Of a DNA stretch of 64,000 bases, positions 39,629 through 59,894 are shown piece by piece (positions within the stretch are counted from its first letter, which is position 1; every line of letters begins with the position of its first letter). Origin of the DNA: Mesorhizobium alhagi CCNWXJ12-2 (GTDB taxonomy: Bacteria > Pseudomonadota > Alphaproteobacteria > Rhizobiales > Rhizobiaceae); assembly GCF_000236565.1 (NCBI RefSeq), contig NZ_AHAM01000300.1, forward strand, positions 1 through 64,000, in the 5' to 3' direction. The position numbers and the translations under genes were made by a program. The notes under the pieces are model-generated. The model made no database searches, was not told the DNA's origin, and was given only the letters and a program-made list of their open reading frames with translations.

Positions 39629-40639
39629 TCAGGGCTTCTCGATCGATGACTTACCGATCGTGTCGGCCATGGTGGCACCTCGAGAGCCAATCGGCAGAGG
39701 CTCGCCGGTCGTCGTATCCTTTGCGGTCTGATGTTCCAGTTCGGCGTTGAGTTCGGCGCCAAAGAGCAGGATCATGACTGAGATCCAGACCCAGACCATG
39801 AAGCCGATCACGGCGCCAAGGGTGCCGTAGGTTGCGTTGTAGTTGGCGAAGTTCTCCAGATAGTACGAAAAGGCCATCGACGTGACGACCCAGACCACCG
39901 TGGCAATTCCAGAGCCCCATGTGAGCCACCGCCATTGTGGACGCTCGCGACTTGGACCAAAGCGGTAGATGAGCGAAATCGCTGCTGCAACCACGATCAG
40001 CAGGACGGGCCAGCGCAGCGTCTTGACGAGGGTCTCCGCCCACTGGCCAAGGTTCAGGAAGGCGAGCACGGCCGGCACTACGCCCACCGAGACCAGGAAC
40101 AGAATGCCGATAAGGATCGAGCCGATCGTGAACGAGAATGTGACAAGATGCAGCCGAACCAGACCGCGCTTCTCCTGTTCTTCATGGGCGATGTTCATGG
40201 CTTGAAAGGTGGCTTTGATCCCATTGTTGGCGCTCCACAGCGCGATAGCCAGTCCGGCGACGAAGCCGAAGCTCAAGGCATTGGTTTCCTGGTCGGCCAG
40301 TGATCCAAGCTGGCTGCGGATGAGGTCCATGCCACCAGAGGGAAGCAGGCCGCCCAGAAACGAGATATGTTCCGCAATCGTATGCGGATTGGCCACAAAG
40401 CCATAGAGCGAGACGAAAGCGGCGAGCGCTGGAAACAGAGCCAACAGCAAGTAAAACGTCACACCTGCCGCGACCAGCATTATGCGATCCTCATTGCTCT
40501 CGCGAGCCACACGCCACAGCACATCCTTCCATCCAGCCAGCGGTATTCGCGAAGGGCCGGCCGCCTGCCGGCCTCGGCCCTGTTCACCAGCGCGTCGGCT
40601 AGTCGCCGCGTCCACCGAATGCGACCTCGGCTGGCTCAT
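39629..40639 (-). CDS. YihY/virulence factor BrkB family membrane protein
   Basis: A 336-residue YihY/BrkB-type protein with about six membrane helices. Conserved points are AAGVTFYLLLALFPALAAF in the first helix, LWSANNGIKATFQAMNIA and a C-terminal WISVMILLFGAELNAELEHQ. The ATG at 40639 lies three bases after the stop of the DUF992 gene, so the two are cotranscribed. The family lost its early annotation as RNase BN and has no established function, although members are frequent in stress regulons of rhizobia. Confidence 0.92.
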   Translation of the reverse strand: MSQPRSHSVDAATSRRAGEQGRGRQAAGPSRIPLAGWKDVLWRVARESNEDRIMLVAAGVTFYLLLALFPALAAFVSLYGFVANPHTIAEHISFLGGLLPSGGMDLIRSQLGSLADQETNALSFGFVAGLAIALWSANNGIKATFQAMNIAHEEQEKRGLVRLHLVTFSFTIGSILIGILFLVSVGVVPAVLAFLNLGQWAETLVKTLRWPVLLIVVAAAISLIYRFGPSRERPQWRWLTWGSGIATVVWVVTSMAFSYYLENFANYNATYGTLGAVIGFMVWVWISVMILLFGAELNAELEHQTAKDTTTGEPLPIGSRGATMADTIGKSSIEKP

Positions 40640-40642
40640 CCT

Positions 40643-41131
40643 CTACGCTTTCATCAAGCTGAGTTCGAGCTCGAGGATGGAAAGCGCGGCATTGACGAAG
40701 TCGGGGGCAGCGGTAAGCGGCTTGAGGTGGATCGACGACTCCATTCCGCCGATCAGGCCATTCTCTGGCTGCGTGCCCAGGGATCCCACATAGCGTCCTT
40801 CGAGATGGCCGGCTGGGGTGTTGATCGAGGGCCCGAACACGGTCCACGCCATGACGATCTGCCCTGGGTCCGGGACCGATGCGCCGATGCGCTTGACAAT
40901 GCCCCGGAAGTTCGCCCGCGGCCCCTTGAAGAGTTCGAAATCACACGATAGCTCCCGCTCAATCCCGAACGGCTCCTCCGAGGCAGGAGAGAGTACGCAG
41001 GTCAGCGTTCCCATATGGGCCGTCGGGGATTGGGCCCCTGCCCGCGTAGTCGCGAACGCACCCGTGATCGCCATGGCAGCCAGGGTTAACGCCAGTGCAG
41101 CCGCGGTTGAGATCATCGGCGTATGCATCAT
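40643..41131 (-). CDS. DUF992 domain secreted protein
   Basis: A 162-residue protein starting with the double ATG at 41131/41128 behind AGGTGAG. Residues 1-32 are a Sec signal peptide (AALALTLAAMAITGAFA). The mature part contains GTLTCVLSPASEEPFG and SCDFELFKG, the conserved cysteine pair of DUF992, and ENGLIGGMESSIHLKPL near the end. DUF992 proteins are small periplasmic proteins of unknown role common in Hyphomicrobiales. It is the first gene of a unit with brkB and has an EcfG-type promoter at 41168-41192. Confidence 0.88.
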   Translation of the reverse strand: MMHTPMISTAAALALTLAAMAITGAFATTRAGAQSPTAHMGTLTCVLSPASEEPFGIERELSCDFELFKGPRANFRGIVKRIGASVPDPGQIVMAWTVFGPSINTPAGHLEGRYVGSLGTQPENGLIGGMESSIHLKPLTAAPDFVNAALSILELELSLMKA

Positions 41132-41167
41132 CTCGCTCACCTTTCTTTGCACGGTGTTACAAACGCG

Positions 41168-41192
41168 AACCCACGGCGCTTGGTATTGTTCC
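41168..41192 (-). promoter_or_regulatory. EcfG-type general-stress promoter for the DUF992-brkB unit
   Basis: On the minus strand GGAAC (41192-41188) is followed after 16 bases by GGTT (41171-41168), matching the alphaproteobacterial EcfG pattern GGAAC-N16/17-[CG]GTT. It lies 37 bases before the ATG of the DUF992 gene. Confidence 0.75.
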
Positions 41193-41587
41193 CTAGCTGG
41201 TTGGCAGTTTCGCAGACCTCAGAAGGTGCATGCTTGGCCGCCGCGCAGACGCGACTCAAAAGATGATGGTTGCCGAAGCCACAGCTTTGTCTCGAGTTTC
41301 TGAAGCCACACCCTAGTAAGTTCACCTAGCGAAATGTTGAATTTTGAAACGATCAGCCTCGTCACGATGCGGGGCCCGGTCCCGCTGCCTGCTGAAATGC
41401 GCGATCGGGCCGCCGATGGAAGTGGCGGCGGGCAGGGCATCGACTGCAAGAAGGGCAACCTGATCGGCGGCTCCGACCCGCACAAGGACGGCTGCGCGCT
41501 CGACTCGCTGTTGCTCTGCGGGTCAATGCCTCCGGTTCTCAAACAGAAAGTTGCGTTGCCGAGCCGAGAAACTCGCGACCGGTGACT
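41193..41587. other. Intergenic stretch between the DUF992 promoter and the DUF2254 gene end
   Basis: Short frames on both strands show no family-like sequence. An open plus-strand frame at 41334-41585 has no ribosome-binding site and no recognisable motif, and is not called. Confidence 0.35.
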
Positions 41588-42862
41588 TCAGGAAGTCGCC
41601 TTGGCGGTTGCCAATTCTTCAACCGCCGCCCTAACGGCGGCAATATCTTGGGGAAGCTTCATTGAGAACTCGGCCCGGGCAAGGATCTCCTGAGCGAGTT
41701 GCATCGCGGGCTTCCGGAAATCGGAAGGCGCCGCCTTAGCAAGCGTCTTCAGGCCCCGCACCATGGCCAAGGTCACATCGACGGATGCAGACGCATCTCG
41801 CGAGATCGAGCCGAACGCTTCCGCAATGAGCTCGGCCGGCGCCACCGGTTCCACGGAGATGCGGCCGAATTTTGACTCTGCCTGCTCTCCATAAGCGCTT
41901 CGGGCCCAGTCGCCAAGGAGCCGGGTTTGCGAGAAGATGACGTCGATGGCGGTGCCGGGATCGTTCACTGCCGTGGACAATGCCCGACGCGCGATCTCCG
42001 CCAGAATGGTCAGACCATATCCGGGATCGTAGTCGAAGGTTCTTTCACCGCCCACTAGAAAGGCCTGGCGCATGCTTGTCAGACTGTCGTCGGGCGCCTC
42101 TCCAGCAGCCTGCGCCAGTATGGTGTCGTAGTCGACATAACTGCCCGGGCGGGCCAGGACGTGTATGCTGAGTTTGTGTCCCTCGGCAATTTCCTGGAGG
42201 CGTTCCCTGTCGAAGTGCTGGACGAAACCGACCCGCTCGGCCCGCACCGCGAATCCGCTGCCTGTCACGGACGTGCTTCTGCAGCACCCGTAGAGCGCAG
42301 CCGGACCGAGACGCTCGAGAGCGTCCTTCGTGGCCTTTTCCACACGATCGATCGTCTCGCCGACACGGCCGACGACCGAAATCTGTCCGATCCACCTGAT
42401 GAGCGAAAACACGATCGCCAGCACGACGACGACGGTGGCGCCGAATAGAATGAGCCGCCCGCTCGTACTGTAGATCTCGCCGGACAACCCGATGATTCCG
42501 ACGATGCTGAAAAGGAAAGCGCCGATGAACACGGATATGGATGTCTGTGCACGCCTGTCCTCAACGATGAGCGGAACGGCCCTGGGCGTCCCGGACTGGG
42601 ATACGTTCGCCAGCAGGTTCACCAGTGTCGATAGAGCGAACACAGAGACCGTCAGCATGCTCGCGGCCACTATGCTGAGGATGCTTTCTACCGCCTCCTG
42701 CGAGACTGTGATCGGAAGATTACCGGGTCTGATCGGATCGGCAAAAAAGATGGTGGAGAAATAGGCGGCGGCAAGGACCAGGACGGCAAAGACCGAGAAC
42801 AGCGCCGGCAGGAACCAAAGCCCCCGCGTGATCCGTTTGAACAGGAACCAATTGAGCGGCAA
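41588..42862 (-). CDS. DUF2254 domain membrane protein
   Basis: A 424-residue protein with four N-terminal membrane segments (WFLPALFSVFAVLVL, a segment ending in STLVNLLANVS, FIGAFLFSIVGIIGL and ILFGATVVVVLAIVF) and a soluble C-terminal half with DPGYGLTILAEIARRALS and NDPGTAIDVI, the usual DUF2254 signature. I place the start at a TTG (42862) preceded by AGGAGG, because the ATG at 42880 lies upstream of the predicted transcript start of the EcfG promoter at 42906-42882. DUF2254 function is unknown. Confidence 0.85.
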   Translation of the reverse strand: MPLNWFLFKRITRGLWFLPALFSVFAVLVLAAAYFSTIFFADPIRPGNLPITVSQEAVESILSIVAASMLTVSVFALSTLVNLLANVSQSGTPRAVPLIVEDRRAQTSISVFIGAFLFSIVGIIGLSGEIYSTSGRLILFGATVVVVLAIVFSLIRWIGQISVVGRVGETIDRVEKATKDALERLGPAALYGCCRSTSVTGSGFAVRAERVGFVQHFDRERLQEIAEGHKLSIHVLARPGSYVDYDTILAQAAGEAPDDSLTSMRQAFLVGGERTFDYDPGYGLTILAEIARRALSTAVNDPGTAIDVIFSQTRLLGDWARSAYGEQAESKFGRISVEPVAPAELIAEAFGSISRDASASVDVTLAMVRGLKTLAKAAPSDFRKPAMQLAQEILARAEFSMKLPQDIAAVRAAVEELATAKATS

Positions 42863-42881
42863 ATCGTCCTCCTGCTGCACG

Positions 42882-42906
42882 AACGCGGCGAGGTAGCGGA
42901 TGTTCC
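42882..42906 (-). promoter_or_regulatory. EcfG-type general-stress promoter for the DUF2254 gene
   Basis: GGAAC (42906-42902), 16 bases, CGTT (42885-42882) on the minus strand: an exact consensus. Transcription would begin near 42875, inside the apparent first codons of the open frame, which supports the TTG start at 42862. Confidence 0.8.
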
Positions 42907-42920
42907 GCTAACCATGTGCC

Positions 42921-42946
42921 GGAACCAAGGCCATTCGGGAGCCGTT
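42921..42946 (+). promoter_or_regulatory. EcfG-type general-stress promoter facing the mgtC-yetF unit
   Basis: GGAAC (42921-42925), 17 bases, CGTT (42943-42946) on the plus strand, an exact consensus. It is only 15 bases from the oppositely oriented promoter of the DUF2254 gene. The next confident gene, mgtC, begins 335 bases downstream; the interval has open frames but none recognised. Confidence 0.7.
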
Positions 42947-43280
42947 ATGCCAAATCGGAAGCCGTGCGAGCAGGTGAGAGTAGCCGCCGGGCGTTGGCGA
43001 TCGGGTATCCGCGGCAAGCCGTCTAGACGCCCACATTGATCGCCTCGGGATTTCGGCGGCGGCATCTGGATCAACTTGTCGGAGCCAACCTACCGCTTGC
43101 ACGGCGCGCCCGAGCCGGAACTGGTCGACAAGACCCATTCGGATTGCCGCGTTCGCATGACCAACTGGAGCTTGCTGAGGTGGTTGAGCAGGGCACGATC
43201 GTGGAGTTCGTCGACAGGCAGCCCAATCACACCCGCAGCCATTTGCCTCACGTCGGGTCCAGAGGCTGACAAGGCCGCAG

Positions 43281-43760
43281 TTGGAGAAGGAAGTGCCTGA
43301 CCTTGGCTTTGATCTCGATGTGCTCGTCTCCGATGTTGCACTGGTGCTGCTCGCCTTCGGACTTGCCTTTCCGATCGGCTGGGAACGCGGGCGTGGCCGT
43401 CACAGCGCAGGCTTTCGCACCCTGCCGATCGTGGCCATGGCAGCTTGCGGCTTTGCGATCATCATCGAGATGACGGCGCCTCAGGACACGGAAGCGCGTG
43501 CCCGAGTCTTGCAAGGGGTCATTACCGGGATCGGATTCATCGGCGGCGGTGCGATCCTTAAAAACGGCGGCAACGTCAAGGGCTTGGTGACGGCTGCCAG
43601 CATCTGGAACGCAGGCGCGATCGGAGTTGCGGTTGGACTTGGAAGAGCCAACATCGCGGTCGTGCTCAGTGTGGTCAATCTCCTCAGCCTGTGGCTGCTC
43701 ACAAGGGCCAACCATGCGACCGGCAATGGGGATGGGCATAAAGGTGGAGACCGTGACTGA
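43281..43760 (+). CDS. MgtC/SapB-family membrane protein
   Basis: A 159-residue protein with four or five membrane segments. The family motif is GLAFPIGWERGR (arginine/glutamate-rich first loop), followed by GFRTLPIVAMAACGF, GVITGIGFIGGGAILK and TAASIWNAGAIGVAVGLG, all hallmarks of the MgtC N-terminal domain. The start is uncertain: a TTG at 43281 or a GTG at 43293. It lacks the long C-terminal ACT-like domain of true MgtC. Relatives affect membrane potential and acid or magnesium-limitation survival. It overlaps or abuts the DUF421 gene. Confidence 0.88.
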   Translation: MEKEVPDLGFDLDVLVSDVALVLLAFGLAFPIGWERGRGRHSAGFRTLPIVAMAACGFAIIIEMTAPQDTEARARVLQGVITGIGFIGGGAILKNGGNVKGLVTAASIWNAGAIGVAVGLGRANIAVVLSVVNLLSLWLLTRANHATGNGDGHKGGDRD

Positions 43761-44232
43761 ACCGATGCTGTTCGACACGTGGGGCAGTCTCCTGCGTATT
43801 CTGATAGTGGGCACTGCTGCCTATGTTGCCTTGATCATCATGCTTCGGGCGTCCGGCAAGCGGACCCTGAGCAAGATGAATGCCTTTGATCTGGTGGTCA
43901 CTGTTGCGCTGGGATCGACACTTTCCAGCGTTCTTCTCAGCAGGTCCGTTCCGTTGGCTGATGGCGTGCTGGCCCTGGCGCTGCTGGTGTGCCTCCAATA
44001 CGCGATCACGTGGCTCGCGGTGCGCTCGGATCGAGTACGCAACCTGGTAAAGAGCGAGCCTACGCTTCTGGTCAGGGATGGCACGTTCCTTGACCGGGCG
44101 ATGAAGTCGCAGCGAGTGACCCGAGAGGAAATCCTGGCCGCGTTACGGCAGCAGGGCTCCGATGACATCAGCGAGGCGGCCTGTGTGGTTTTGGAGACCG
44201 ACGGCTCGATCAGCATAGTCCAAAGTCGCTAA
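43753..44232 (+). CDS. YetF/DUF421 family membrane protein
   Basis: A 159-residue protein with three N-terminal hydrophobic segments and a soluble DUF421 domain. Signature sequences are LRASGKRTLSKMNAFDLVVTVALGST and the C-terminal TREEILAALRQQGSDDISEAACVVLE. The start could be the GTG at 43753 (GGTGGAG four bases upstream), ATG 43765 or ATG 43732. It overlaps the last bases of the mgtC frame, so the two are one transcript. YetF proteins are of unknown biochemical function and are commonly induced by stress in alphaproteobacteria. Confidence 0.88.
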   Translation: MTEPMLFDTWGSLLRILIVGTAAYVALIIMLRASGKRTLSKMNAFDLVVTVALGSTLSSVLLSRSVPLADGVLALALLVCLQYAITWLAVRSDRVRNLVKSEPTLLVRDGTFLDRAMKSQRVTREEILAALRQQGSDDISEAACVVLETDGSISIVQSR

Positions 44233-45132
44233 CGTCATGACAACAAGAGGCTGGTTCTCCGTTTTCAACGCAGACCGACGCGTTCAAAGACCTCCGCCCC
44301 GCGATTGCCGATTCATCTCCAAATTCATGATGATTATTCGCGCCGGAAGGTCTGATGTGGCGGTTTCCATTAGTGAACACGAGACCTGAGCAGTGGAACC
44401 TTATCTCATTGAAACTGTTCGGCTCGGTTCTGCTTGTGAAGAAGCAGAGTTGGCCGTCACCGGATGTGATGTCGTTCCTTCTGGCGACTTGCCCTCCACG
44501 ATCGGAGGGCGCGAGTTCGGCATATCGCCAACACTCGCGACTTGACCGAGCGGTAACGGCTACAATTGCGAAACGCTTGAGCGTCAAGCAGAGGGCTGGC
44601 GGGCAAAGCGCATTTCTAAGTTGCCCATCCGCTCTGATTTCCAAAAGCGTCACCTCAGCTTTTGCACGAGTGGGGCTGTTCCCTTAGGAAATCAGCTTCG
44701 GCCTCGCCGATCTTCCAGCCGATCGCGAATAGACCCATACAGGCCTCCTCCCGCAGAATCAGTTGATCCGGTCCAACGGCTTGACCCCAAAGACCACGAC
44801 TGTGGGAACGACTCCCATCTGTTCGCGCACCCAGCGACGCCAGAGCTTCCACACCCCTTGCGGAAGTCTGCAACTGCCGCAAGATCAGAGCTACAAGGTC
44901 AGTCGGAAATCTCTTGATGGACGACAGAAAGATAGTCAGGCCAAACTCCTGCGTACAAAGGACTGTAACCATGACTAAGATTATCTATGGCCTACCCGGC
45001 GCGACGGGGGTTTCCCGCGCCGGCCCAGGTTCGGCAACGTACAGCGGCATTTGCATCTCGCAAGTGGCCCGCCAAACAGCGTGGCCACTTCTTTGTTCCG
45101 AAATACATGCAGCGCTTTTTTCGAACTCTTTC
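44233..45132. other. Long intergenic stretch without a confident gene
   Basis: About 900 bases. The longest frames (plus 44355-44687, minus 44655-44972) show no recognised family. The minus frame has a helical-looking C-terminal part (MGLFAIGWKIGEAEADFL), so a small unknown gene cannot be excluded. No repeat or RNA structure was identified. Confidence 0.35.
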
Positions 45133-45157
45133 GGAACAACCATGTGGGCGCCGGGTT
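45133..45157 (+). promoter_or_regulatory. EcfG-type general-stress promoter for the manganese catalase gene
   Basis: GGAAC (45133-45137), 16 bases, GGTT (45154-45157) on the plus strand. The predicted start of transcription lies about 20 bases before the ATG at 45183, leaving a short leader with GGAGG at 45171-45175. Confidence 0.75.
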
Positions 45158-45182
45158 GGGCAAGCCCAACGGAGGTTACCAC

Positions 45183-46013
45183 ATGTACTACACCGATAAG
45201 AAACTGCAGTTTCCCGTCCGGGTTGAAAAGCCCAATCCGGTCTTTGCCCGCGCTCTTCAACAGGCCATTGGCGGTGTCGAAGGCGAAATTCGCGTGGCGC
45301 TGCAATACTTCTTCCAAGCCTGGGGCGCGCGCGGGCCAACCAAGTATCGCGACATGCTTCTGAACACGGCCACGGAGGAGCTTTCTCATATCGAGATGCT
45401 CTCGACCGCCGTTGCACTCAACCTTGAAAACGCTCCCATGTCCCTGAAGGAGCAGGTCTCGGAGGACGCGGTGGGGGGATCGGTGCTCAACGGAATGAAC
45501 TTCCGGCACATATTGTCGACAGGCTTGGCCGCGCTTCCTGAGAACTCGAACGGCGTCCCTTTCAATGCATCGCATGTCTATGCCAGCGGAAATTTGGCCG
45601 CCGACATGATGGCCAATGTCACCGCGGAGAGCAGCGGCAGGGTTCTCGCGGTTCGGCTGTACAACATGACCGACGATCCGGGCATGAAGGAGATGCTTTC
45701 TTTCCTGATAGCGAGGGACACCATGCACCAGCAGCAATGGTTGGCCGCCATCGAGGACATGGGTGGGCTTGCGGCCTCGCTGCCGATTCCCAATTCGTTC
45801 CCGCAGGAACAGGAGCAGCAATATGTGAGCTACGCGTTTGTCAATTGTTTCGTCGAAGGCATTGATCCACCCGAGGGCCGGTGGTCGAGCGGCCCGTCGC
45901 TCGACGGCAAGGGGGAGTTCTCGACGGTTGCTGGCGAACCGACGGGAAGCGAGCCCGTGTTGGCGCCGCCGCGGCCAGACAGCGGCGCCCAGCACGAGCA
46001 GATCAGGGGATAG
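45183..46013 (+). CDS. Manganese catalase
   Basis: A 276-residue non-heme catalase that breaks hydrogen peroxide down to water and oxygen at a di-manganese site. All five expected ligands are present at the expected positions: Glu35 (in VEGEIR), Glu66 and His69 (TATEELSHIEM), Glu149 (VTAESSGR) and His182 (RDTMHQQQW). The ATG at 45183 follows GGAGG with good spacing; the frame is open upstream but without family sequence. The C-terminal tail is proline and acid rich and varies in the family. An EcfG-type promoter precedes it, fitting a role in general stress. Confidence 0.95.
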   Translation: MYYTDKKLQFPVRVEKPNPVFARALQQAIGGVEGEIRVALQYFFQAWGARGPTKYRDMLLNTATEELSHIEMLSTAVALNLENAPMSLKEQVSEDAVGGSVLNGMNFRHILSTGLAALPENSNGVPFNASHVYASGNLAADMMANVTAESSGRVLAVRLYNMTDDPGMKEMLSFLIARDTMHQQQWLAAIEDMGGLAASLPIPNSFPQEQEQQYVSYAFVNCFVEGIDPPEGRWSSGPSLDGKGEFSTVAGEPTGSEPVLAPPRPDSGAQHEQIRG

Positions 46014-46053
46014 GCTTCGAAGCCGAACTGGCAGGCTAGCTATCCGCAGATAA

Positions 46054-46084
46054 GGAGGCCCACCACCAAAGACGGTGGGCCTCC
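46054..46084 (+). terminator. Strong hairpin after the catalase gene
   Basis: A perfect 11-base inverted repeat, GGAGGCCCACC and GGTGGGCCTCC, with a nine-base loop, 40 bases after the catalase stop. There is no T-run on either side, so it may act as a transcript-stabilising or weak termination hairpin. Confidence 0.6.
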
Positions 46085-46289
46085 CAACAAGCTATTACGC
46101 TTGCTGTCGCGCAGCAGCCAGCGCTGGCTAAAGGCGTTGAAGTTGCCGACGAGAACTGCCCGGCAACATCGCCATGGGGTCCGCTCCGGCTCTCGAAGGT
46201 CACGCAGGAGCTGGAATCACGAGTTGACAAGGCCGGCCTCCTTGCCATTGCAATGGAAAGGGAGGCCAACGGCCACCCATTCCAAATGG

Positions 46290-46817
46290 TCATGCAGCTT
46301 GTTGCAATGCGCGTTCGTTGACACCGCCCTCGCCAAGGGCGGAGAGCGCTTCGTCTGTTTTCGTCTCTTCTTCGAGTGTGGCCTTCAGGAGCTTCACCGC
46401 CTCGGATTTTCCAAGCTGTTCCGCCCACGCGATGAGGGTCCCATAGCGGGCGATCTCGTAATGCTCGACCGCCTGGGCCGCTGCCACGAGACCGGCGTCC
46501 AGGGCCGGAGCGCCCTTATACTCTTCGAGGATCTCCGAGCCTTCTTCCAGGATGCCGTCAATGGCCGGGCAGGTCTTGCCGCGAGCGGACTTGCCGAACA
46601 GTTCGAAGACCTGGTCGAGACGGTCTACCTGGCCTTCGGTCTCGGCCCGGTGCTTCTCAAAAGCCGCCGTCACCTCTTCGGATTCGGCTCCCTTCGCCAT
46701 TTTCGGCAGCGCCCTCAAGATCTTCTTCTCGGCGTAATACAGGTCCTTCAAGCCGTCGAGGAATAGGTCTTCCAGACCCTTGGTTTCCGTTTTTGAGGCC
46801 TTCTTCGTGGTTGCCAT
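46290..46817 (-). CDS. DUF892 (YciE-type) ferritin-like protein
   Basis: A 175-residue ferritin-like protein starting at ATG 46817 behind GGAGACG. The domain begins LEDLFLDGLKDLYYAEKKIL and includes EKHRAETEGQVDRLDQVFEL and AQAVEHYEIARYGTLIAWA, with the Glu and Glu-x-x-His residues that would bind a di-iron or di-manganese centre in a four-helix bundle. YciE-like proteins are general stress proteins with no established reaction. It is convergent with the catalase gene and has an EcfG-type promoter at 46868-46892. Confidence 0.92.
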   Translation of the reverse strand: MATTKKASKTETKGLEDLFLDGLKDLYYAEKKILRALPKMAKGAESEEVTAAFEKHRAETEGQVDRLDQVFELFGKSARGKTCPAIDGILEEGSEILEEYKGAPALDAGLVAAAQAVEHYEIARYGTLIAWAEQLGKSEAVKLLKATLEEETKTDEALSALGEGGVNERALQQAA

Positions 46818-46867
46818 TGTGTTCGTCTCCGGGTTGGTAGAAGCCTCGCCTGACGGAGGCCCCTGAT

Positions 46868-46892
46868 AACCCGCCGCCCCAACAGTTGTTCC
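46868..46892 (-). promoter_or_regulatory. EcfG-type general-stress promoter for the DUF892 gene
   Basis: GGAAC (46892-46888), 16 bases, GGTT (46871-46868) on the minus strand, 51 bases upstream of the DUF892 start codon. Confidence 0.75.
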
Positions 46893-46915
46893 CATCATTT
46901 CGGGGTTTCAAGCGA

Positions 46916-47109
46916 TCAGCCGTCCATCATTTCCAGGAGGCCGACTTCCTCCTCAACCTGTTCAAGCTTGACCTGCGCCGATATTTGCGTCCTTGCGGAA
47001 CGCCTCGGCCAGTTCGGGCGCGCCGACTCCGCGGCTCGCCGAAGACGCGCGGCTTGTCGATATCCTCCTTCGCCCATCGGCGAATGAAGACCAGGCCCTT
47101 GAAGCTCAT
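46916..47109 (-). pseudogene. Frameshifted small gene coupled to the DUF768-like gene
   Basis: The ATG at 47109 overlaps the stop of the upstream DUF768-like gene as ATGA. The frame begins MSFKGLVFIRRWAKEDIDKPRV and then loses coherence. Other frames continue plausibly with GVGAPELAEAFRKDANIGA and then QVKLEQVEEEVGLLEMMDG to a stop at 46916. Taken together they would make a protein of about 64 residues with an acidic C-terminus. Two frame changes are needed. The family is not recognised. Confidence 0.4.
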
Positions 47110-47333
47110 GCAGGATTTCCTTTGGGCGCTGCAACCGTCAGCTCGTCGGTGATCGCTTGTTCTATGTCGACCACGACCTCTTCCAGTTCCTCAAGCGGAA
47201 CGCCCGCTTTCTTGGCGTCATTGGCGCACTTTTCCGCGAGGATCGGCGCCGACTTCTCCGGCGCCTTGAGGTGCCGGTCGGTAACTTTGGCATCGAGCCA
47301 ACTGTCCATGAAGTCTTCTGCGCGTTTGCTCAT
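47106..47333 (-). CDS. DUF768-like small rhizobial protein
   Basis: A 75-residue acidic protein starting at ATG 47333 behind GGGAGG. It starts MSKRAEDFMDSWLDAKV and ends with a helical EELEEVVVDIEQAITDEL segment. The beginning and the pattern of a tryptophan-containing helix plus an acidic C-terminal helix resemble the DUF768 family, known almost only from Mesorhizobium and relatives; I recall the family rather than having aligned it. No function is known. It is followed by a coupled but frameshifted small gene. Confidence 0.65.
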   Translation of the reverse strand: MSKRAEDFMDSWLDAKVTDRHLKAPEKSAPILAEKCANDAKKAGVPLEELEEVVVDIEQAITDELTVAAPKGNPA

Positions 47334-47560
47334 TTGAGCCTCCCAGCGATTTCTTGAGCGGTCACTCGACACAACGCCATGCTGTGCAAAAGGATGCCGA
47401 CAGCGGAACGACCGGCTATGCGGCGTGAGTGACAGAACGCCTGCGCCAAGCGTGTGCGATGCCAACCTGCACCGGTATCGATGTCTATAGATCACGGGCG
47501 GGAGGCTCGGTTGTAAGCATTGTCGCTTTCGAATCTTCCGCAAATCTGGAATCGGCAAAA

Positions 47561-47597
47561 GCCGCTTCGGTGGGGAAGCGGCCTTGCAGAATTTTTC
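47561..47597 (-). terminator. Hairpin with T-runs on both strands
   Basis: GCCGCTTC (47561-47568) pairs with GAAGCGGC (47575-47582) around a short loop. TTTT follows the hairpin on the minus strand and TTTTT (47592-47596) lies ten bases after it on the plus strand. On the minus strand it is downstream of the scpB remnant. Confidence 0.6.
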
Positions 47598-47738
47598 ATC
47601 GGCTCAGCGTTTCGGCTGCGAGCACGTCTTGTCGCGGACGGATTCCTCGGTCCGTTCGGCCGCGGACTTGAACACCTCGCTGACCCGGTCGATGGCAAAA
47701 GACACCACAAAGCCGAAATTCAAAATGACGAACTGCTC

Positions 47739-47993
47739 TACCCAGCCTCAACATCTTCATCGCGGGCTGGATCATCGAGCGCCGCCGGCATGTCTCCCGC
47801 CAGCAGCTTTTCCTTCGAAAGCAAGCTCGTCCTCGAGCGCCTCGGCGTCGGGCAGGCCGCGCAGCGAATTGAACCCGAACTGCAGCAGGAACTGTTTCGT
47901 CGTCACATAGGTAGGGCGCGCCCGGCGTCGGGCTGCGCGGCCCGGAGGTATGCCATGGAAGGAACTTTGGGCGTTGATGTTCGGCCATCGCAT
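47739..47993 (-). pseudogene. ScpB (segregation and condensation protein B) C-terminal remnant
   Basis: The minus strand reads TYVTTKQFLLQFGFNSLRGLP and DAEALEDELAFE, the well-known second winged-helix end of ScpB, then after a frame change KLLAGDMPAALDDPARDEDVE and a stop at 47739. The N-terminal two thirds are missing. ScpB normally works with ScpA and SMC in chromosome segregation, so the functional copy must be elsewhere and this is a duplicated, decayed piece. Confidence 0.7.
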
Positions 47994-48214
47994 GTCAGCC
48001 GGATTCCTCCACCATCGCGTGTTTACCGCAAAACAATCCGGGCGCGAAGGCTCGCCTCGTACTGATCTTGGGGGATCGCATGACAGGGCTTCTCGCTCTA
48101 TCGAGAGCCATTGACCGTATGAATGAGTGGCGCGCCTCCCCGTTGCGGCGGTGGTGCTTGACGCGGAAGGTCACACCGGCGCCGTCGATCGCAGTCAGGC
48201 CGCTGTGGCAATGG

Positions 48215-48365
48215 CGATAGCGAGCCGCACGTATGTAGGACGGCGGTTAAGCATGCGGGTGCCGAGGCGGCGCCGAACGGGAGGTCATGGATCACCGCCT
48301 TGTTCTGATCGGCGACGGCGGCGGTCTCGACCGGCAAGGTGAAGTCGAGGTGGAGGTAGTCGACC
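48215..48365 (-). pseudogene. IS91-family transposase remnant
   Basis: The frame reads DYLHLDFTLPVETAAVADQ and NKAVIHDL, then TAVLHTCGSL after an internal deletion. This matches the conserved FTLP, NKAV and VLHTWGS blocks of IS91/ISCR-type transposases. Only about 50 of more than 300 residues remain, and no ends of the element were found. Confidence 0.6.
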
Positions 48366-48482
48366 GGCTAGAGATTGGCAGGTGTATTGCATATTCATCC
48401 CGATGAAGCCACTGTTAGGCTTCCGACGCCCCCGGCTGGCTTGCCCCGCACGGGGGCGCGTCACGCCTGGGGTCCCGTCTAC

Positions 48483-49940
48483 GTGAATAGAATTGCCGTT
48501 CGCGCCGCGATCCACGTTGCAGCCGTCTTCGCCCTCTATCTCTCCGCCGCGATGCTGATCCCGGCGGCGGTCGACCTCTATTTCGGCAACCAAGACTGGC
48601 GGGTCTTCGCCTTTTCGGCGCTGTTCATGGGCGGGCTTGCAATCGCGGTGGCGCTCGCAACGCAGGGACACGCGCCGCCGGTGACGACGCGGTTCGGCTT
48701 CTTCCTCGTCAATCTGCTCTGGCTGACTATGGCCATCGCCGGCGCTGTGCCATTTCTGGCCTCGTCACTGGAAATGAGCATGGCGGATGCCTTCTTCGAA
48801 TCCGTCTCCGGCATCACCACCACCGGATCGACAGTGATAAGCGGGCTCGACAATGCCCCTCCGGGGCTGATCCTGTGGCGCTCGCTGCTGAACTTCATGG
48901 GTGGCCTCGGGGTCATCGCGCTCGGCCTATTCCTGCTGCCTTTCCTGAACGTCGGCGGCGTTTCCTATTTCAAGATCGAATCGTCGGACATCGAGGACAG
49001 ACCGTTCGAGCGTTTCCAGACCTTCGCCATCAGCCTGATCGCAATCTACACCGGCCTCGTCGTTACCTGCGCCATCAGCTATGCGGCTGCGGGGATGGAA
49101 GGATTCAACGCCGTCAACCACGCAATGGCGACGCTCGCGACCGGCGGGTTCTCCCCCCACGACACGTCGTTCGTCCGCTATGCCGAAATGCCGGCGATCC
49201 TCTGGATCGGGGTTTTCTTCATGTTTCTCGGCGCCCTGCCATTTTCGATCATGATTCTGTTTGCGGTTCGCGGCCGTTTCGACGCACTGCGCGATCCGCA
49301 GATCCGGGTTTTCGCCGGCTATTGCATCGTGTTTACGGTCGCCGTCGCGATCTATCTGCGTGTCCAGCTCGATACGCCGTTCTTCGAGGCGCTGACGCAT
49401 TCGGCCTTCAATTTTATGTCTATTATCACCACAACGGGATTCGCCAGCGACGACTACACGCAATGGGGTCCTTTCGCGGTCGTCTGCATCTTCGTCGCAA
49501 CCTTCCTCGGCGGCTGCTCGGGTTCCACGACCGGCGCCATCAAGGCTTACCGGTTCCTGATCCTGTTCGAACTGATGGCCAACGGCCTGCGCCGGCTGAT
49601 CTATCCGCATACAGTGCTGCCGGTTCGTTATGGAGACCGCACGATCGACCACGACATGCAGCGGACGATCGTGCTTTTCATCGCAGCCTTCTTCGTTATC
49701 TGGGCGATCGCGACGATCATGCTCGGCGCGACCGGCCTCGACCTCGTGACAGCGATGACCGGCGCGTTGACCGCGCTCACCAATGTCGGTCCCGGCCTCG
49801 GCCCGATCATCGGCCCAGTCGGTAATTTCTCATCGCTGCCGGATTCGGCCAAATGGATTCTTTCCTTCGCCATGCTGCTCGGACGTCTCGAGATTCTCGC
49901 CGTGCTGGTGATCTTCACACCGACTTTCTGGGCGCGCTGA
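48483..49940 (+). CDS. trkH: TrkH-type potassium uptake protein
   Basis: A 485-residue potassium-transporter subunit if the GTG at 48483 is used, which matches the usual TrkH length; an ATG at 48375 would add 36 residues without family character. The four selectivity-filter loops are visible: ESVSGITTTGSTV, MATLATGGFSPHD, MSIITTTGFASDD and TALTNVGPGLGP. TrkH forms the membrane channel that works with the NAD-binding TrkA, which is not in this window. It lies beside an IS91 remnant and has no EcfG-type promoter. Confidence 0.93.
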   Translation: MNRIAVRAAIHVAAVFALYLSAAMLIPAAVDLYFGNQDWRVFAFSALFMGGLAIAVALATQGHAPPVTTRFGFFLVNLLWLTMAIAGAVPFLASSLEMSMADAFFESVSGITTTGSTVISGLDNAPPGLILWRSLLNFMGGLGVIALGLFLLPFLNVGGVSYFKIESSDIEDRPFERFQTFAISLIAIYTGLVVTCAISYAAAGMEGFNAVNHAMATLATGGFSPHDTSFVRYAEMPAILWIGVFFMFLGALPFSIMILFAVRGRFDALRDPQIRVFAGYCIVFTVAVAIYLRVQLDTPFFEALTHSAFNFMSIITTTGFASDDYTQWGPFAVVCIFVATFLGGCSGSTTGAIKAYRFLILFELMANGLRRLIYPHTVLPVRYGDRTIDHDMQRTIVLFIAAFFVIWAIATIMLGATGLDLVTAMTGALTALTNVGPGLGPIIGPVGNFSSLPDSAKWILSFAMLLGRLEILAVLVIFTPTFWAR

Positions 49941-50111
49941 TCTTCCGCAAAGCTGGGCCAGCGCTCACTGGCGGAAAGAATTGTTTTCAAGGAATCCGGC
50001 TGGCATGCATTTTTGCGCCTTCCCAACCAACCAGCGATCAGCTGATTGCATATACAGCGCGGCGCAAGACCCTAATAAGCGCGCAACACAAAAACCCAAG
50101 GACCGTGAAAG

Positions 50112-50878
50112 ATGGCACCGCCACATGAGAAATTGGCCGAGTCGCTCGCTGCGCTAAAAGAACTGCAGGATCAGCGGATCGTCGCCATCCGTTCGAGCAA
50201 TCCCTCCCGCACCCATCGCGAACGGCCCCTCAAAGGCGGCTTTCTGCAAGAAGTCATGAAGGGTTGGTACCTTGCGACCAATCCGCATCAGCGCCAGGGC
50301 GAGACGACGGGCTGGTACGCCTCGTTTTGGGACTTTTGCGCCAGCTATTTGAGTGACCGCTTCGGCAAAGACTGGTGCATCGCCCCCGGGACCCTCGATC
50401 GCCCTTCATAACGGCAATCGCACGGTTCCGGGGCAATTGCTGGTGCGATCTCCCGTTGGCGGCAACAAGCCCACTTCCCTTTTGCACGGCACCTCGATTT
50501 TTGACTTGCCGGCTAGCACGCCCGCGATATTGCCGAATCAGACGGCCTTCGTCTCTACGCCCCTTACCGGTGGCGCTCATCGAAGCCTCACACGCCTTCT
50601 TCACGCAAAAGCGGACCGGCGCGAGGACGGCATTGGCGATGTTCTCGGACGCATCTGAAATTCTCGCGCGCCTCCTCGAAGGAGGTCACAGCACGATTGC
50701 CGGCCGCCTCGCCGGTGCTTTTCGCAACATCGGCCGCGAGCGGATAGCCGATGACATTGTCCGCAGTATGCAGGCTGCCGACTACACGGTTCGGGAGATC
50801 GACCCGTTCGATATACGGCTAGAGTTGTCTCTGCCGCGCCGCGAGACGTCACCCTATGCCGGACGTACTGGTCGATAG
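50112..50878 (+). pseudogene. Fic-type protein N-terminal half, frameshifted twice
   Basis: Frame one (50112 to about 50390) reads LAESLAALKELQDQ and GGFLQEVMKGWYLATNP, then WYASFWDFCASYL. Frame two continues LLVRSPVGGNKPTSLLHGTSIFDLP. Frame three continues LAMFSDASEILARLLEGGHS, AGRLAGAFRNIGRERIADD and LPRRETSPY. As I recall, this order is the N-terminal region of a family of long Fic proteins whose catalytic HPFxxGN domain follows. Here the Fic core is absent and a CoiA-like piece follows instead. It is dead both by frameshift and truncation. Confidence 0.6.
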
Positions 50879-50879
50879 G

Positions 50880-51211
50880 AACGGCGCGAGTCCTTTCCGT
50901 CTGTACGACATGTGGATCGGCGATGATTTCCAAATACGGTCCGCACATCATGCATCGGTGGCGCACTTCGACCGCACGACTGCGATCCATGGTGGGAGAG
51001 CGAGACCCCGTCGCACCGCGAATGGAAGAACAGGTTTCGCGAGGAATGCAGGGAGATCTCTCATATTGCGCCCGACGGGAAATCCACCGTGCCGACATAA
51101 AGACCCCATCCGGAATCGTTATCGAGGGTGCAGCACTCGGCGATGACGGATGCGGAACGGCTGTCTCGGGAAGCCTTCTACGAGAACCTGGTGTGGGTGG
51201 TCGACGGCTGA
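50880..51211 (+). pseudogene. CoiA-like competence protein remnant
   Basis: Three plus-strand frames give pieces in order: ISKYGPHIMHRW (around 50925), then SETPSHREWKNRFREECREIS, HRADIKTPSGIVIE (about 51090-51125) and QHSAMTDAERLSREAFYENLVWVVDG ending at a TGA near 51211. These match the CoiA family core, including the K and E residues of its nuclease-like fold. Several frame changes and the missing C-terminus show it is not functional. Confidence 0.6.
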
Positions 51212-51383
51212 TCCGTCGTTTTTGTCAAATCGGAGCTCCTGTCTGCCGGGGAGCCTCTTGCTAGGCATGCACTATGCCGCACACCAAAATTTCGCGCTCG
51301 TCCGGGCTGCAGTCGGCAACAGCCTGTTAATGCTTCAGGTGGCAAAGTTACGGAAGAACAAGAACAATTGCCGGTTTCATGTA

Positions 51384-53597
51384 ATGGGTCACTTCGGAAG
51401 CCCAAGCGCCCTGCGCTTCTTCATCCGCACTGTCGTTCCCTTTTTTGCCGCCGCGATAAGTCTCAACCTGATCGCGGGTAGCCTCTTGTACTGGTCGACG
51501 GCAGAGGCGGATCGGATCTCCGTAGAGCGCCAGAGGGCGCTGGTCGATCTCGTGGTGTCGCAGTTGCGATCCACGGTCGCACATGATCAGGAAAGCGTCA
51601 CCGTATGGGACGACGCGGTCGAGAATGTTCGCGCAGGGGCGACGGACTGGATCGACGTCAATCTCGGCAGCTGGATGAACACCTACTTCGGACATGACGG
51701 TGCTTATGTCATCGATTCAGAAAACCGGCCGCTCTACGCTGCCGTAGACGGAACAATGGCCGATCCGGAGATGGTTCGTGATATCTGGCCACAAACTCAG
51801 CCCCTTGTAGAGGAGTTGAGGAACCGCTTGAGATCTGGAGACGCATCGGGGACTTCGGATCAGGTTCTGACGATCGGCACCTCGGAGATTTCGGTGGTTT
51901 CCGGACGGCCCGCAATCATAAGTGTCAAGCCGATCGTATCGGATAGCGGTGAAATTGAGCAGCCTGCGGGAGGGGAAGCCCTGCACATCGCGGTCCGCTA
52001 CCTTGACGACAGCCTCGTAAGGGAACTCCAAAACAGCTATCTGCTCGACGGCCTCAGGTTCTCCTGGACACAAGATCATGGTCGGGATGAAGGTGTCAGC
52101 CCGTTGATCGACTCGGCTGGCAAAGCGATCGGACACTACGTCTGGACGCCGTATCGCCCAGGCACGGTCGTATTCGGCGATGTCTGGCCGGTGCTTCTGG
52201 CCCTCTTCATCGCGGGCATAGTGGCCTTGGTAGGTTTCTTGATCGTGCTCCGCCGCCGCTCCTTGTCCCTCAACCGCACGCAGGCTGAAATAAGGCACCT
52301 CGCCTCCCACGACGTGCTCACCGGATTGCCGAACAGAAAGCAGTTCGAGATCCGTTTGGATGAAGCACTTGCTGCAATCGCGAAAGCCGGGGAGCGGGTG
52401 GCGGTCCTCTACCTCGATCTGGACAAGTTCAAGGAGGTGAACGACACGCTGGGGCACCCGGCGGGTGATGAGCTGCTGCGCGAGTTCGCCGATCGGTTGC
52501 GCCGCCTGACGGACGAACGCGATACGGTCGCGAGGTTGGGCGGCGATGAGTTCACGATTATTCTCCGCAATCCCGCCGATGAAGCCCAGATCGAGCAGCT
52601 ATGCACAAGGATCGTCGAAACTGCCCGCCATCCCTTTGAACTTGCCGGAACGCAGGTCTTTATTGGGGTAAGCGTCGGCGCAGCAATTGCACCGAAGGAC
52701 GGTGTGGAACGCGTTGCCATTACCCGCAAGGCTGATATCGCGCTTTACACGGCCAAAGCAAACGGCCGGAGCGGCTATGCAATTTTCTCCCCTGCCCAGG
52801 AAGAGTTGGTTACGGAAAGGCGCGCACTCGAGCGGGACCTTCGTGAAGCTCTAGATGACTCTGGCCAGTTCTGCGTCTACTATCAGCCTCTCTACGCCGC
52901 CCGGAGCCGCGGGCTTGCCGGAGCAGAGGCACTCGTCCGCTGGGACCATCCCGTACGTGGTCGCGTGGCGCCTGATGCCTTCATTCCGCTGGCGGAGGAA
53001 ACAGGCCTGATCGAGCGGCTGGGCGCATTTGTGCTCAATGAAGCGTGTAGCGCGGCAGTCAACTGGTCTGTCGAGACGCTCGCCGTCAACGTCTCGGCAG
53101 TTGAGCTACGGAGCCCAGTGTATGCTGTTCGTGTCGCCAACATACTCATGGCAACGGGCATGAGTCCGCGTCGGCTCGAGCTTGAAGTGACGGAAACGGC
53201 CCTTTCCGACAAGGACGGGCACGTGCAGCAAAATATCCAAGCACTCAAGGAGCTTGGCGTGAGGTTCGCGCTCGACGACTTCGGAACCGGGTTTTCCTCT
53301 CTGGGCCGCCTGCAACAGCTCGATGTGGATCGCATCAAGATCGATCGCAGCTTCGTCCAGGGCTTTGGTTCCGAAAATGGTGACGAGGCGATCGTCAGAG
53401 CGATCGTCGACCTCGCAAAGGCAACGGGCCTTAAGACGACTGCGGAAGGCGTCGAAACCGTCGAGCAGGATCGCTTCTTGGGGTCGATCGGCTGCGACGA
53501 GCTTCAGGGCTTCCTGCTGTCACGTCCACTACCGAGATACGAATTCGAGGAGATTCTTGCAGGCCTGCAGTCACAGGTTAGGCAAAATCGGATCTAG
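51384..53597 (+). CDS. Membrane-bound GGDEF-EAL cyclic-di-GMP enzyme with CHASE4-like sensor
   Basis: A 737-residue protein if started at ATG 51384; the frame is open to 51150 through CoiA-remnant DNA. A first membrane segment (about 10-32) and a second (about 268-290) enclose a 235-residue extracytoplasmic domain of CHASE4 type. The diguanylate cyclase domain has an intact GGDEF at 386-390; the phosphodiesterase domain has an intact EAL at 515-517 and DDFGTGFSSLGRL and KIDRSFV farther on. Both domains could be active, so the net direction of c-di-GMP control is not predictable. A terminator follows at 53743. Confidence 0.92.
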   Translation: MGHFGSPSALRFFIRTVVPFFAAAISLNLIAGSLLYWSTAEADRISVERQRALVDLVVSQLRSTVAHDQESVTVWDDAVENVRAGATDWIDVNLGSWMNTYFGHDGAYVIDSENRPLYAAVDGTMADPEMVRDIWPQTQPLVEELRNRLRSGDASGTSDQVLTIGTSEISVVSGRPAIISVKPIVSDSGEIEQPAGGEALHIAVRYLDDSLVRELQNSYLLDGLRFSWTQDHGRDEGVSPLIDSAGKAIGHYVWTPYRPGTVVFGDVWPVLLALFIAGIVALVGFLIVLRRRSLSLNRTQAEIRHLASHDVLTGLPNRKQFEIRLDEALAAIAKAGERVAVLYLDLDKFKEVNDTLGHPAGDELLREFADRLRRLTDERDTVARLGGDEFTIILRNPADEAQIEQLCTRIVETARHPFELAGTQVFIGVSVGAAIAPKDGVERVAITRKADIALYTAKANGRSGYAIFSPAQEELVTERRALERDLREALDDSGQFCVYYQPLYAARSRGLAGAEALVRWDHPVRGRVAPDAFIPLAEETGLIERLGAFVLNEACSAAVNWSVETLAVNVSAVELRSPVYAVRVANILMATGMSPRRLELEVTETALSDKDGHVQQNIQALKELGVRFALDDFGTGFSSLGRLQQLDVDRIKIDRSFVQGFGSENGDEAIVRAIVDLAKATGLKTTAEGVETVEQDRFLGSIGCDELQGFLLSRPLPRYEFEEILAGLQSQVRQNRI

Positions 53598-53742
53598 CCA
53601 TCGCCTTAGGCATCAGCTCAACCCCGACGTCGAGCCACGAAAGCGGGTGCCCAAGGATTTGGAACAAGATGCTCTTGCGGCAGTTTTCAAGTATCCAAGG
53701 GGAACTCCTCAGGGCAACCCCGAACCCCTTGGAAAAAGGAAG

Positions 53743-53783
53743 CCCGCCGCTGCTTCGGGTCCCCTCTCGCGCGGCGGGTTTCT
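53743..53783 (+). terminator. Rho-independent terminator after the GGDEF-EAL gene
   Basis: CCCGCCGC (53743-53750) pairs with GCGGCGGG (53771-53778), followed by TTTCTT. It lies 146 bases after the stop codon. Confidence 0.65.
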
Positions 53784-53970
53784 TGCGTTCAGACCCGGCA
53801 GATGATTTCCGAGTACATTGAACCGGTGCGGTTAAACGTGCGCAGCAGCCGCAACACGTCGCGTCATCGAGCGTATCGCCCAGCTTCCTTCGCTTCGACA
53901 GGCGAACCTTGCCGGGATCAAGCCAGGCATCGAATGCGGTATGGTCGAGAATTTCAGGCATCCGGCCGCG
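53784..53970 (-). pseudogene. SRAP (YedK/HMCES) family C-terminal remnant
   Basis: The minus strand reads GRMPEILDHTAFDAWLDPG, the conserved segment in which the catalytic-site histidine and the RMP motif of SRAP proteins lie, followed by a short tail with TAPVQCTRKSSA. The N-terminal catalytic cysteine region is missing. SRAP proteins protect abasic sites in DNA; this copy is only a fragment. Confidence 0.5.
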
Positions 53971-54254
53971 GATTCACAAACACCGGTCCCACACATCACG
54001 ACCCCCGCGCGGAACAATTCGGGCCAAATGTGGTTGAAGAACCACGACCCGGAGGGCGGGAGGTAGAACCTCTGGGCAGGGTGAGAGCCGAGCCACCTCC
54101 TCGTGTGTGCGCCGGCTCTCCCCGCTTCGCCGCCAAATAGCAGTATTACCGCTGGCGCTTCGCGCCTGGACATGGCGATCTCCGATACTTTGAGAATTGC
54201 CGCACTAGAACATAATTCTTCAGTCGTCATTCTCCCAAGAGGAGCCCTCCATTT

Positions 54255-54280
54255 TGGAACAATTGCCCGCTAGGGCGGGT
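54255..54280 (+). promoter_or_regulatory. EcfG-type general-stress promoter for the DUF3606 gene
   Basis: GGAAC (54255-54259), 17 bases, GGTT (54277-54280) on the plus strand. The start codon is 24 bases downstream, behind AGGGAG. Confidence 0.7.
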
Positions 54281-54303
54281 TCGCTCTCGACAGGGAGAGC
54301 GTG

Positions 54304-54510
54304 ATGGCAGATGGTAAAAGCAAGAACAGCAAACAGGACCAAGGTCGCCTATCGTCCGGTGATCACTATGAGATTCGCGACTTCGCCCATGAGTTCGACA
54401 TGTCCCTAGGGCAGGTCCGCGACTTGATCAGGCGGCACGGCAATGACCGTGCGACGCTTGAACGCGAGGCTCGGAAGCTGAAGAGGATAAGCCATTCAAC
54501 GAATGCCTAG
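54304..54510 (+). CDS. DUF3606 domain small protein
   Basis: A 68-residue protein starting at ATG 54304 behind AGGGAG. It has a polar, lysine-rich N-terminus and then YEIRDFAHEFDMSLGQVRDL and HGNDRATLEREARKLK, which is the DUF3606 helix-turn-helix-like repeat. The family is widespread as small stress-induced proteins of unknown function in Hyphomicrobiales. The leader and promoter match that view. Confidence 0.82.
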   Translation: MADGKSKNSKQDQGRLSSGDHYEIRDFAHEFDMSLGQVRDLIRRHGNDRATLEREARKLKRISHSTNA

Positions 54511-59364: not shown

Positions 59365-59479
59365 AAAGTCCCTCCCCTCCCCCGCTAAAGACCGCGATGT
59401 CTCGGCCCGAGAGAGCAGGATTTTCACCTAAGCTTTTCAATTGAAATCGGGAAGTGAAACCGACACAGGGCATAGAGCG

Positions 59480-59708
59480 TTACCGCAAATCGTCCAGAAG
59501 TTCGGGATGTTTTTGGAGGAGCGGGAGCGCTCGGCTCGACTAGGCCGCGTTCGTATTTGTCGAAGGCGTTCTCCCCGACTTTGAACAGCGCCCCGGCTTC
59601 CCGCTGCGACAATTTCAGCTTGGCGCGAATCTGCCGGATGGTCGCCGGCGCCGGCAGACCGTCAACCTTTTCCTTGAGGCTACGCAGCGCCTCGTCGACT
59701 ACGCTCAT
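59480..59708 (-). pseudogene. MqsA/HigA-like antitoxin, N-terminally truncated and frameshifted
   Basis: From an ATG at 59708 the frame reads MSVVDEALRSLKEKVDGL, then IRQIRAKLKLSQREAGALF and FDKYERGLVEPSA, the helix-turn-helix of MqsA-type antitoxins. The correct end, LPLLQKHPELLDDLR, is in another frame and stops at 59480. The N-terminal zinc-binding CxxC domain that normally precedes it is not recognisable in the 59709-59906 DNA. No toxin gene (MqsR or similar) is present. Confidence 0.65.
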
Positions 59709-59894
59709 ATCTTTGCCGACGTGCACGCCGTCCCCCTCCCGATTGGCATGTCCAGCGAAGGGTAAGAAGCACCTCCCCTTGGCCTTGCGGCGGGGATAAC
59801 CCCTCAATTCACCCTTTGTTCCTTTTCGAATATGGCTGGCGACATATAGTCTGGTGTTTTCCTTTAACTGATTCCTCAGGGAGGCAGCGCGTAG

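Follow-up and report, generated by a model that had tools for sequence, protein, structure and literature searches.

The sigma factor EcfG, which governs the general stress response, is described as exclusive to the Alphaproteobacteria, and its motif in Rhizobium etli is GGAAC-N16-CGTT (PMC3892343). The consensus in Methylobacterium extorquens is GAAC-N16,17-C/GGTT (PMC4814048), EcfG-dependent genes of Sphingomonas melonis show both GGTT and CGTT (PMC6599016), and a putative manganese (Mn) catalase of R. etli, CH00462, is among the RpoE4-regulated genes (PMC3188799). Here we describe a cluster of sites with these elements in a 64,000-nucleotide (nt) stretch of Mesorhizobium alhagi CCNWXJ12-2 (the window, taken at its whole length). 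Judging from their sequence and from their recurrence in relatives, most of these sites are very probably promoters that EcfG recognises.

EcfG-type sites in the window and in the genome

We searched the window with GGAAC-N16/17-[CG]GTT (the loose pattern) and obtained eight matches; the expectation, set by dinucleotide shuffling (100 shuffles, none with more than 6 matches), is 1.8. The pattern scan recovered all six sites of the original prediction, five of them at exactly the coordinates given there and the sixth, before DUF3606, one base away (54256-54281 rather than 54255-54280), and added two more, 54011 and 59798 (Table 1). Pfam agreed with the predicted gene neighbours for BrkB, DUF992, DUF2254, MgtC, YetF, Mn_catalase and DUF892; the DUF3606 match scored slightly below the cutoff. 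Sites had been placed just before five genes, and the distance to the start is indeed 20-51 nt for DUF992, DUF2254, Mn-catalase, DUF892 and DUF3606. It is also below about 100 nt for an MqsA-like gene, and exceeds this for mgtC (335 nt) and for site 54011.

Comparison with the background density in the genome, which had been proposed as a check, was made by scanning all 6.97 Mb (375 contigs) with the reversed pattern as control, and it gave a divided answer. The loose pattern was little above background (265 matches versus 200 reversed), and one such match taken by itself therefore says little. The strict pattern, GGAACAA-N14/15-SGTT, gave 32 matches versus 3 reversed, i.e. about ten times the control, and six of the 32 fall in the window (0.9% of the genome), all within 18.7 kb. 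Outside the strict set are 42882-42906 (GGAACAT) and 42921-42946 (GGAACCA); the pattern GGAACA[AT], which includes the former, gave 51 matches versus 7 reversed across the genome, with seven in the window. This pattern was less clean in nine other genomes: 47 versus 20 reversed in the genus mate G086, 32 versus 13 in the genus mate G165, and 286 versus 118 summed over seven genomes reached via named Mn-catalase loci.

Clustering was assessed by placing sites uniformly on one 6.97 Mb line in 20,000 draws, with contig ends and gene structure ignored. Six strict sites in 18.7 kb were reached in none of the draws (maximum, 5), and eight loose sites in 18.7 kb in 0.2% of them; the window was picked after the sites had been seen, but the simulation scores the densest stretch wherever in the genome it falls. 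These counts bear on one alternative, in which GC-rich DNA matches so short and degenerate a pattern by chance. Such an origin would suit the loose genome-wide count, and site 42921, being a loose match only, but it sits badly with the strict excess, with the clustering, and with the recurrence at homologues described below, where reversed controls were 0 and rates in far windows low; we regard it as very improbable.

Among the 26 strict sites outside the window, ten were annotated by Pfam, having been selected for recognisable genes; several of the remaining 16 show no convincing gene. The genes 16 to 229 nt behind the annotated ten encode myo-inositol-1-phosphate synthase, three DUF982 proteins, cytochrome c, cytochrome oxidase subunit II, a BON-domain protein, a transglutaminase, a glycine-zipper protein and an epimerase-VKOR fusion. 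Several strict sites on the M. alhagi contigs C96, C104, C105, C106 and C128 have an unusually alike spacer and -10 element, ending in GGTTCGCCGTT or a near variant, and two of these sites precede DUF982 genes.

The general stress module and the sigma factor reading the sites

A profile search of the genome found one NepR gene (59.9 bits), with EcfG alongside and PhyR divergent, and an HWE histidine kinase (HWE_HK, E 1.5e-22) adjoins phyR on contig C335; PhyR, EcfG and HWE kinase domains were all found by domain search. All three genus members have CGTT-type sites in both orientations before the ecfG linked to nepR, which is a positive control for the motif. There is also a second EcfG-type gene (ecfG2, contig C349) in which sigma domains were found. 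In G086, a copy of ecfG2 lies about 1.1 kb past Mn-catalase (L194:17967-18515, equal to C1:3769969-3770514) with a GGAAC-N16-GGTT site of its own, and another second-EcfG-type copy lies at C1:5.35 Mb.

If the known pathway operates here, stress would cause the HWE-type kinase to phosphorylate PhyR, which would then bind NepR and free EcfG. Once free, EcfG would guide RNA polymerase to promoters with the GGAAC and [CG]GTT elements, and would be expected to switch on transcription of Mn-catalase, DUF892, DUF992-brkB, DUF3606, DUF2254 and, probably, mgtC-yetF.

The reading of the cluster as EcfG general-stress promoters is supported by this cognate module, by a strict motif about ten times more frequent than its control, and by recurrence at homologues in other genera. 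The window sites have -35 and -10 elements with N16/17 between them, the genome has an EcfG-NepR-PhyR locus with an HWE kinase near phyR, and the sites are conserved in five families. GGAAC is, however, a common -35 element of extracytoplasmic function (ECF) promoters, and at least one more ECF factor is encoded in the genome, at 33% identity to EcfG2. Real ECF promoters read by another factor that shares the GGAAC element would look similar at the -35; yet the NGTT -10 element and N16/17 spacing fit the published EcfG consensus (PMC4814048, PMC3892343), the nepR-linked ecfG promoters have the same elements, and seven ECF genes of more distant relationship have no site of this kind upstream, so that such a factor seems a most improbable reader of the sites.

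Recurrence of the sites before homologues

For each gene, the best 30 homologous loci were collected, from 199 sampled genomes for DUF2254 and Mn-catalase and from 297 for DUF892, MgtC and DUF992; these sets hold the closest homologues, rather than a random draw, and include the window copies unless stated. We took the family sample to be Rhizobiaceae, since in the 200 bp at the start of Mn-catalase four of its loci match, without a difference, sequences of Tianweitania sediminis, Rhizobium albus, Gellertiella hungarica and Allorhizobium undicola. The DUF3606 set consists of 21 of the 22 copies in eight genomes; the copy left out (L329), whose flank is cut by a contig end, does carry a site.

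A relaxed pattern, GGAAC-N16/17-NGTT, was sought in 200 bp around the start. It was present in 26/30 loci for DUF892, 15/30 for DUF992, 14/30 for Mn-catalase, 12/21 for DUF3606, 12/30 for MgtC and 3/30 for DUF2254. The reversed pattern gave 0 in all six sets. In the same order of families, the opposite strand gave 1, 2, 3, 0, 0 and 1 matches, and far-upstream windows of the same loci gave 6/150, 0/150, 2/150, 8/105, 1/150 and 1/150. With the window copies removed, five families kept a strong contrast (p at most 3e-6, these values being guides only because the loci are related to one another), and for five genes the chance-match explanation is already largely refuted.

Scans with the [CG]GTT ending (N15-18, about 390 bp) found sites at 20/30 DUF892, 13/30 MgtC and 15/30 DUF992 loci, with 0, 1 and 2 matches for the reversed pattern and 1, 1 and 3 on the opposite strand. 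For DUF3606 the count was 6/22, both controls being 0. In 440 bp, DUF2254 gave 3/30 versus 0 reversed; the third of these sites ends 185 nt upstream and belongs to a different genome from the third site of the relaxed scan.

Mn-catalase was also followed in named genomes. GGAAC-N15..18-NGTT occurs within 160 bp of the gene at 15/30 alphaproteobacterial loci versus 0/50 others (chiefly Pantoea and Halomonas relatives, mostly gammaproteobacteria), with the reversed control at 1/30 and 1/50; GGAAC alone occurs at 24/30 and 3/50, respectively.

Within the genus, sites stand at the equivalent place in G086 for DUF992, DUF2254, Mn-catalase and DUF892, and in G165 for DUF892. Comparison of the window with G086 shows agreement at 36/36 positions of the nine element bases and at 38/64 of the spacers, a contrast that is partly a product of the search, in which the pattern itself picked out the mate sites. 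The spacer before DUF992-brkB has diverged, and that before DUF2254 is identical at 6/16 positions. DUF992 and brkB are neighbours in G086 too; in the window they presumably form one operon, and the DUF992 product, judged by sight, is probably secreted.

Of the three relaxed DUF2254 sites, one is that of the window, one is in G086 and one is in a genome from outside the genus; i.e. both genus members that have the gene carry the site, as does 1/28 of the homologues outside the genus. DUF2254 as a candidate EcfG target is thus supported mainly within the genus. If transcription begins from the 42882 promoter, the start codon is probably TTG 42862, which follows a GGAGGA ribosome site.

The original prediction had the one remaining site, 42921, facing mgtC-yetF. 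The site and its orientation are as described, and it stands back to back with the DUF2254 promoter, like the phyR/nepR pair; the assignment is weakened by the 335 nt between it and mgtC. Of the three MgtC homologues nearest the window copy, two have sites, at 69 and 93 nt, and the third has none. Control of mgtC-yetF, presumably one operon, by site 42921 is likely but unproven. Between site 42921 and mgtC, window 42960-43280 resembled by eye a decayed, frameshifted L,D-transpeptidase C-terminus, for which Pfam gave no support.

Several results weigh against EcfG control of the whole cluster. Genome-wide, the loose pattern is mostly noise (see above). Half or more of the members lack a relaxed site in the DUF992, Mn-catalase, MgtC and DUF2254 sets, and once the window copy is removed 2/29 DUF2254 homologues carry one (p 0.07). 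When the ending was tightened to [CG]GTT, the Mn-catalase loci of the family sample gave 3/30 versus 2/30 reversed (440 bp), no better than the control, so that the family-wide case for this gene rests on the relaxed NGTT ending. The mgtC-facing site is both non-strict and distant, and no gene can be made out immediately after strict site 54011.

The stretch behind site 54011 (54011-54300) is GC-rich and foldable, and folds no better than shuffles. A possible EcfG-driven small RNA at this place gained no support: the fold z was -1.44, there was no Rfam match at the gathering threshold in 38000-64000, and no relative among the loci compared.

Coordinates are collected in Table 1. The DUF892 gene is of the YciF type and ferritin-like. 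For window 45834-46476 and 46787-47334 there are partial copies on contigs C89 (97% identical, with the ends of Mn-catalase and DUF892) and C108 (83%, with the DUF892 promoter and a truncated gene), which point to duplication. A CHASE4-GGDEF-EAL protein is encoded inside the cluster, at 51150-53597, and has no EcfG-type site in front.

Table 1. Predicted EcfG-type sites and neighbouring genes in the window (strict set, GGAACAA-N14/15-SGTT).
Feature	Position	Strand	Details
brkB-family membrane protein	39629..40639	-	Pfam PF03631, E 8.1e-66
DUF992 gene	40643..41152	-	Pfam PF06186, E 1.3e-15; alternative ATG starts 41131, 41128
Putative EcfG-type promoter of DUF992-brkB	41168..41192	-	GGAAC-N16-GGTT, strict set; 40 nt to ATG 41128
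DUF2254 membrane protein	41588..42880	-	Pfam PF10011, E 9.6e-85
Putative EcfG-type promoter of DUF2254	42882..42906	-	GGAAC-N16-CGTT
EcfG-type site facing mgtC-yetF	42921..42946	+	GGAAC-N17-CGTT; loose only
mgtC	43281..43760	+	Pfam PF02308, E 1.3e-28
yetF (DUF421)	43753..44232	+	Pfam PF04239 and PF20730; overlaps mgtC end
Putative EcfG-type promoter of Mn-catalase	45133..45157	+	GGAACAA-N14-GGTT, strict set
Manganese catalase	45183..46013	+	Pfam PF05067, E 3.3e-85
DUF892 gene	46290..46817	-	Pfam PF05974, E 3.2e-60 on longer frame 46290-46898
Putative EcfG-type promoter of DUF892	46868..46892	-	GGAACAA-N14-GGTT, strict set
EcfG-type site	54011..54035	+	strict set; 269 nt before DUF3606
Putative EcfG-type promoter of DUF3606	54256..54281	+	GGAACAA-N15-GGTT, strict set
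Small DUF3606 protein	54304..54510	+	Pfam PF12244, 24.0 bits (cutoff 24.3)
MqsA-antitoxin-like gene	59424..59708	-	Pfam PF15731, E 1.2e-12 on longer frame 59424-59906; ATG 59708
EcfG-type site before MqsA-like helix-turn-helix gene	59798..59822	-	strict set; 90 nt from start

Sites around Mn-catalase and comparison with described regulons

In seven Mesorhizobium and Phyllobacterium genomes, the surroundings of Mn-catalase (up to 10 kb away) hold 21 GGAACA[AT] sites. Without the sites of Mn-catalase itself there are 17, where the count in each genome would predict 0.97; the nominal Poisson p (6e-16) is too favourable because some loci (L117, L118) share near-identical sites. When locus L116 was added (eight loci) and the 200 bp before each Mn-catalase were masked, 18 sites were found versus 1 reversed. 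The excess is uneven: six sites at L113, four at L118, three at L125, two at L115, one each at L117 and L120, and none at L114. L113, from Mesorhizobium sp. N.Ca.ET.125.02.1, has seven GGAACA[AT] sites in 20.8 kb, that of Mn-catalase included, and its neighbours are genes for BrkB, DUF892, a DUF3606-like protein (a tblastn match at 1.7e-5, in a frame without a Pfam score), COX1, DUF2243 and a hydrolase.

A conserved gene block was ruled out, the window's genes being scattered in G086. There, DUF2254 (2.37 Mb), Mn-catalase (3.77 Mb) and DUF992-brkB (3.81 Mb) are on C1, at distances from Mn-catalase of 1.4 Mb for DUF2254 and 40 kb for DUF992-brkB, and DUF892 is on C4. The gene order of the window is therefore an assembly of individually wired genes and not a block shared with G086. 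The Mn-catalase clusters look like modular stress islands. Tentatively, we suggest that in Mesorhizobium-like bacteria EcfG targets may gather around Mn-catalase in such islands, their recurring cargo (Mn-catalase, DUF892, DUF3606, BrkB and small membrane proteins) shuffled between genomes, with each gene keeping its own GGTT-kind EcfG promoter and arriving already wired into the stress response of the host; the GGTT ending may favour the second EcfG.

The first base of the -10 element is biased in the strict sites, with GGTT at 6/6 in the window versus 8/26 elsewhere in the genome (post hoc p 0.003). Near Mn-catalase in the seven other genomes, GGTT is found at 19/21 GGAACA[AT] sites, a figure that stands without a genome-wide GGTT baseline for these genomes. 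One account of both counts would have the island promoters, nearly all GGTT, tuned to EcfG2 and forming a sub-regulon apart from the core CGTT promoters. The G086 copy of ecfG2 beyond Mn-catalase, with its GGTT site, would fit this, as would the report that each R. etli EcfG prefers its own promoter (PMC3892343); but CGTT is used freely by DUF892, MgtC and DUF992 homologues elsewhere, the M. alhagi ecfG2 promoter is itself CGTT, and in M. extorquens the promoters read by the several EcfGs are alike, with C/GGTT (PMC4814048). A special GGTT class read by EcfG2 is contradicted by the CGTT endings at homologues and at ecfG2, and we retain it solely as an unlikely rival; the GGTT preference is an unexplained bias.

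The kind of promoter is known, and the target assignments and the clustering are modestly new. The original prediction had described the families as known members of rhizobial stress regulons, which holds for Mn-catalase through R. etli CH00462 (PMC3188799); for the DUF families no paper was found. Our literature search combining the DUF numbers with EcfG returned none in a coverage that leaves out most subscription journals, and is hence weak evidence of novelty. A search on island terms, in a coverage likewise lacking most subscription journals, found no mention of EcfG sigma factors in the part screened. What we contribute is many-genome support for five families of targets, a case for DUF2254 at the level of the genus, a caution over mgtC-yetF, and a clustering around Mn-catalase that is seen again elsewhere. 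Promoter evidence thereby links several unknown families (DUF892, DUF992, DUF3606, relatives of MgtC and, within this genus, DUF2254) with a single known stress sigma factor, and gives each family a concrete condition and a mutant background for functional testing. If the island picture is true, accessory stress genes would spread and yet stay under the control of the recipient.

Of the described systems, the M. extorquens regulon has a consensus essentially the same as our search pattern (PMC4814048); its six ecfG genes, however, all lie away from the phyR locus, whereas in M. alhagi nepR-ecfG is divergent from phyR. The R. etli regulon (RpoE4/EcfG1 and EcfG2) resembles the M. alhagi case in its motif, its two EcfG paralogues and its Mn-catalase target (PMC3892343, PMC3188799), and differs in that the accessible parts of those reports describe no clustering of targets around Mn-catalase, and in that the island sites of M. 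alhagi are mostly GGTT. The RpoE2 regulon of Sinorhizobium meliloti, in which 76 genes have a mapped start and the motif (PMC3616915), is alike in placing many genes without predicted function under a general stress sigma factor.

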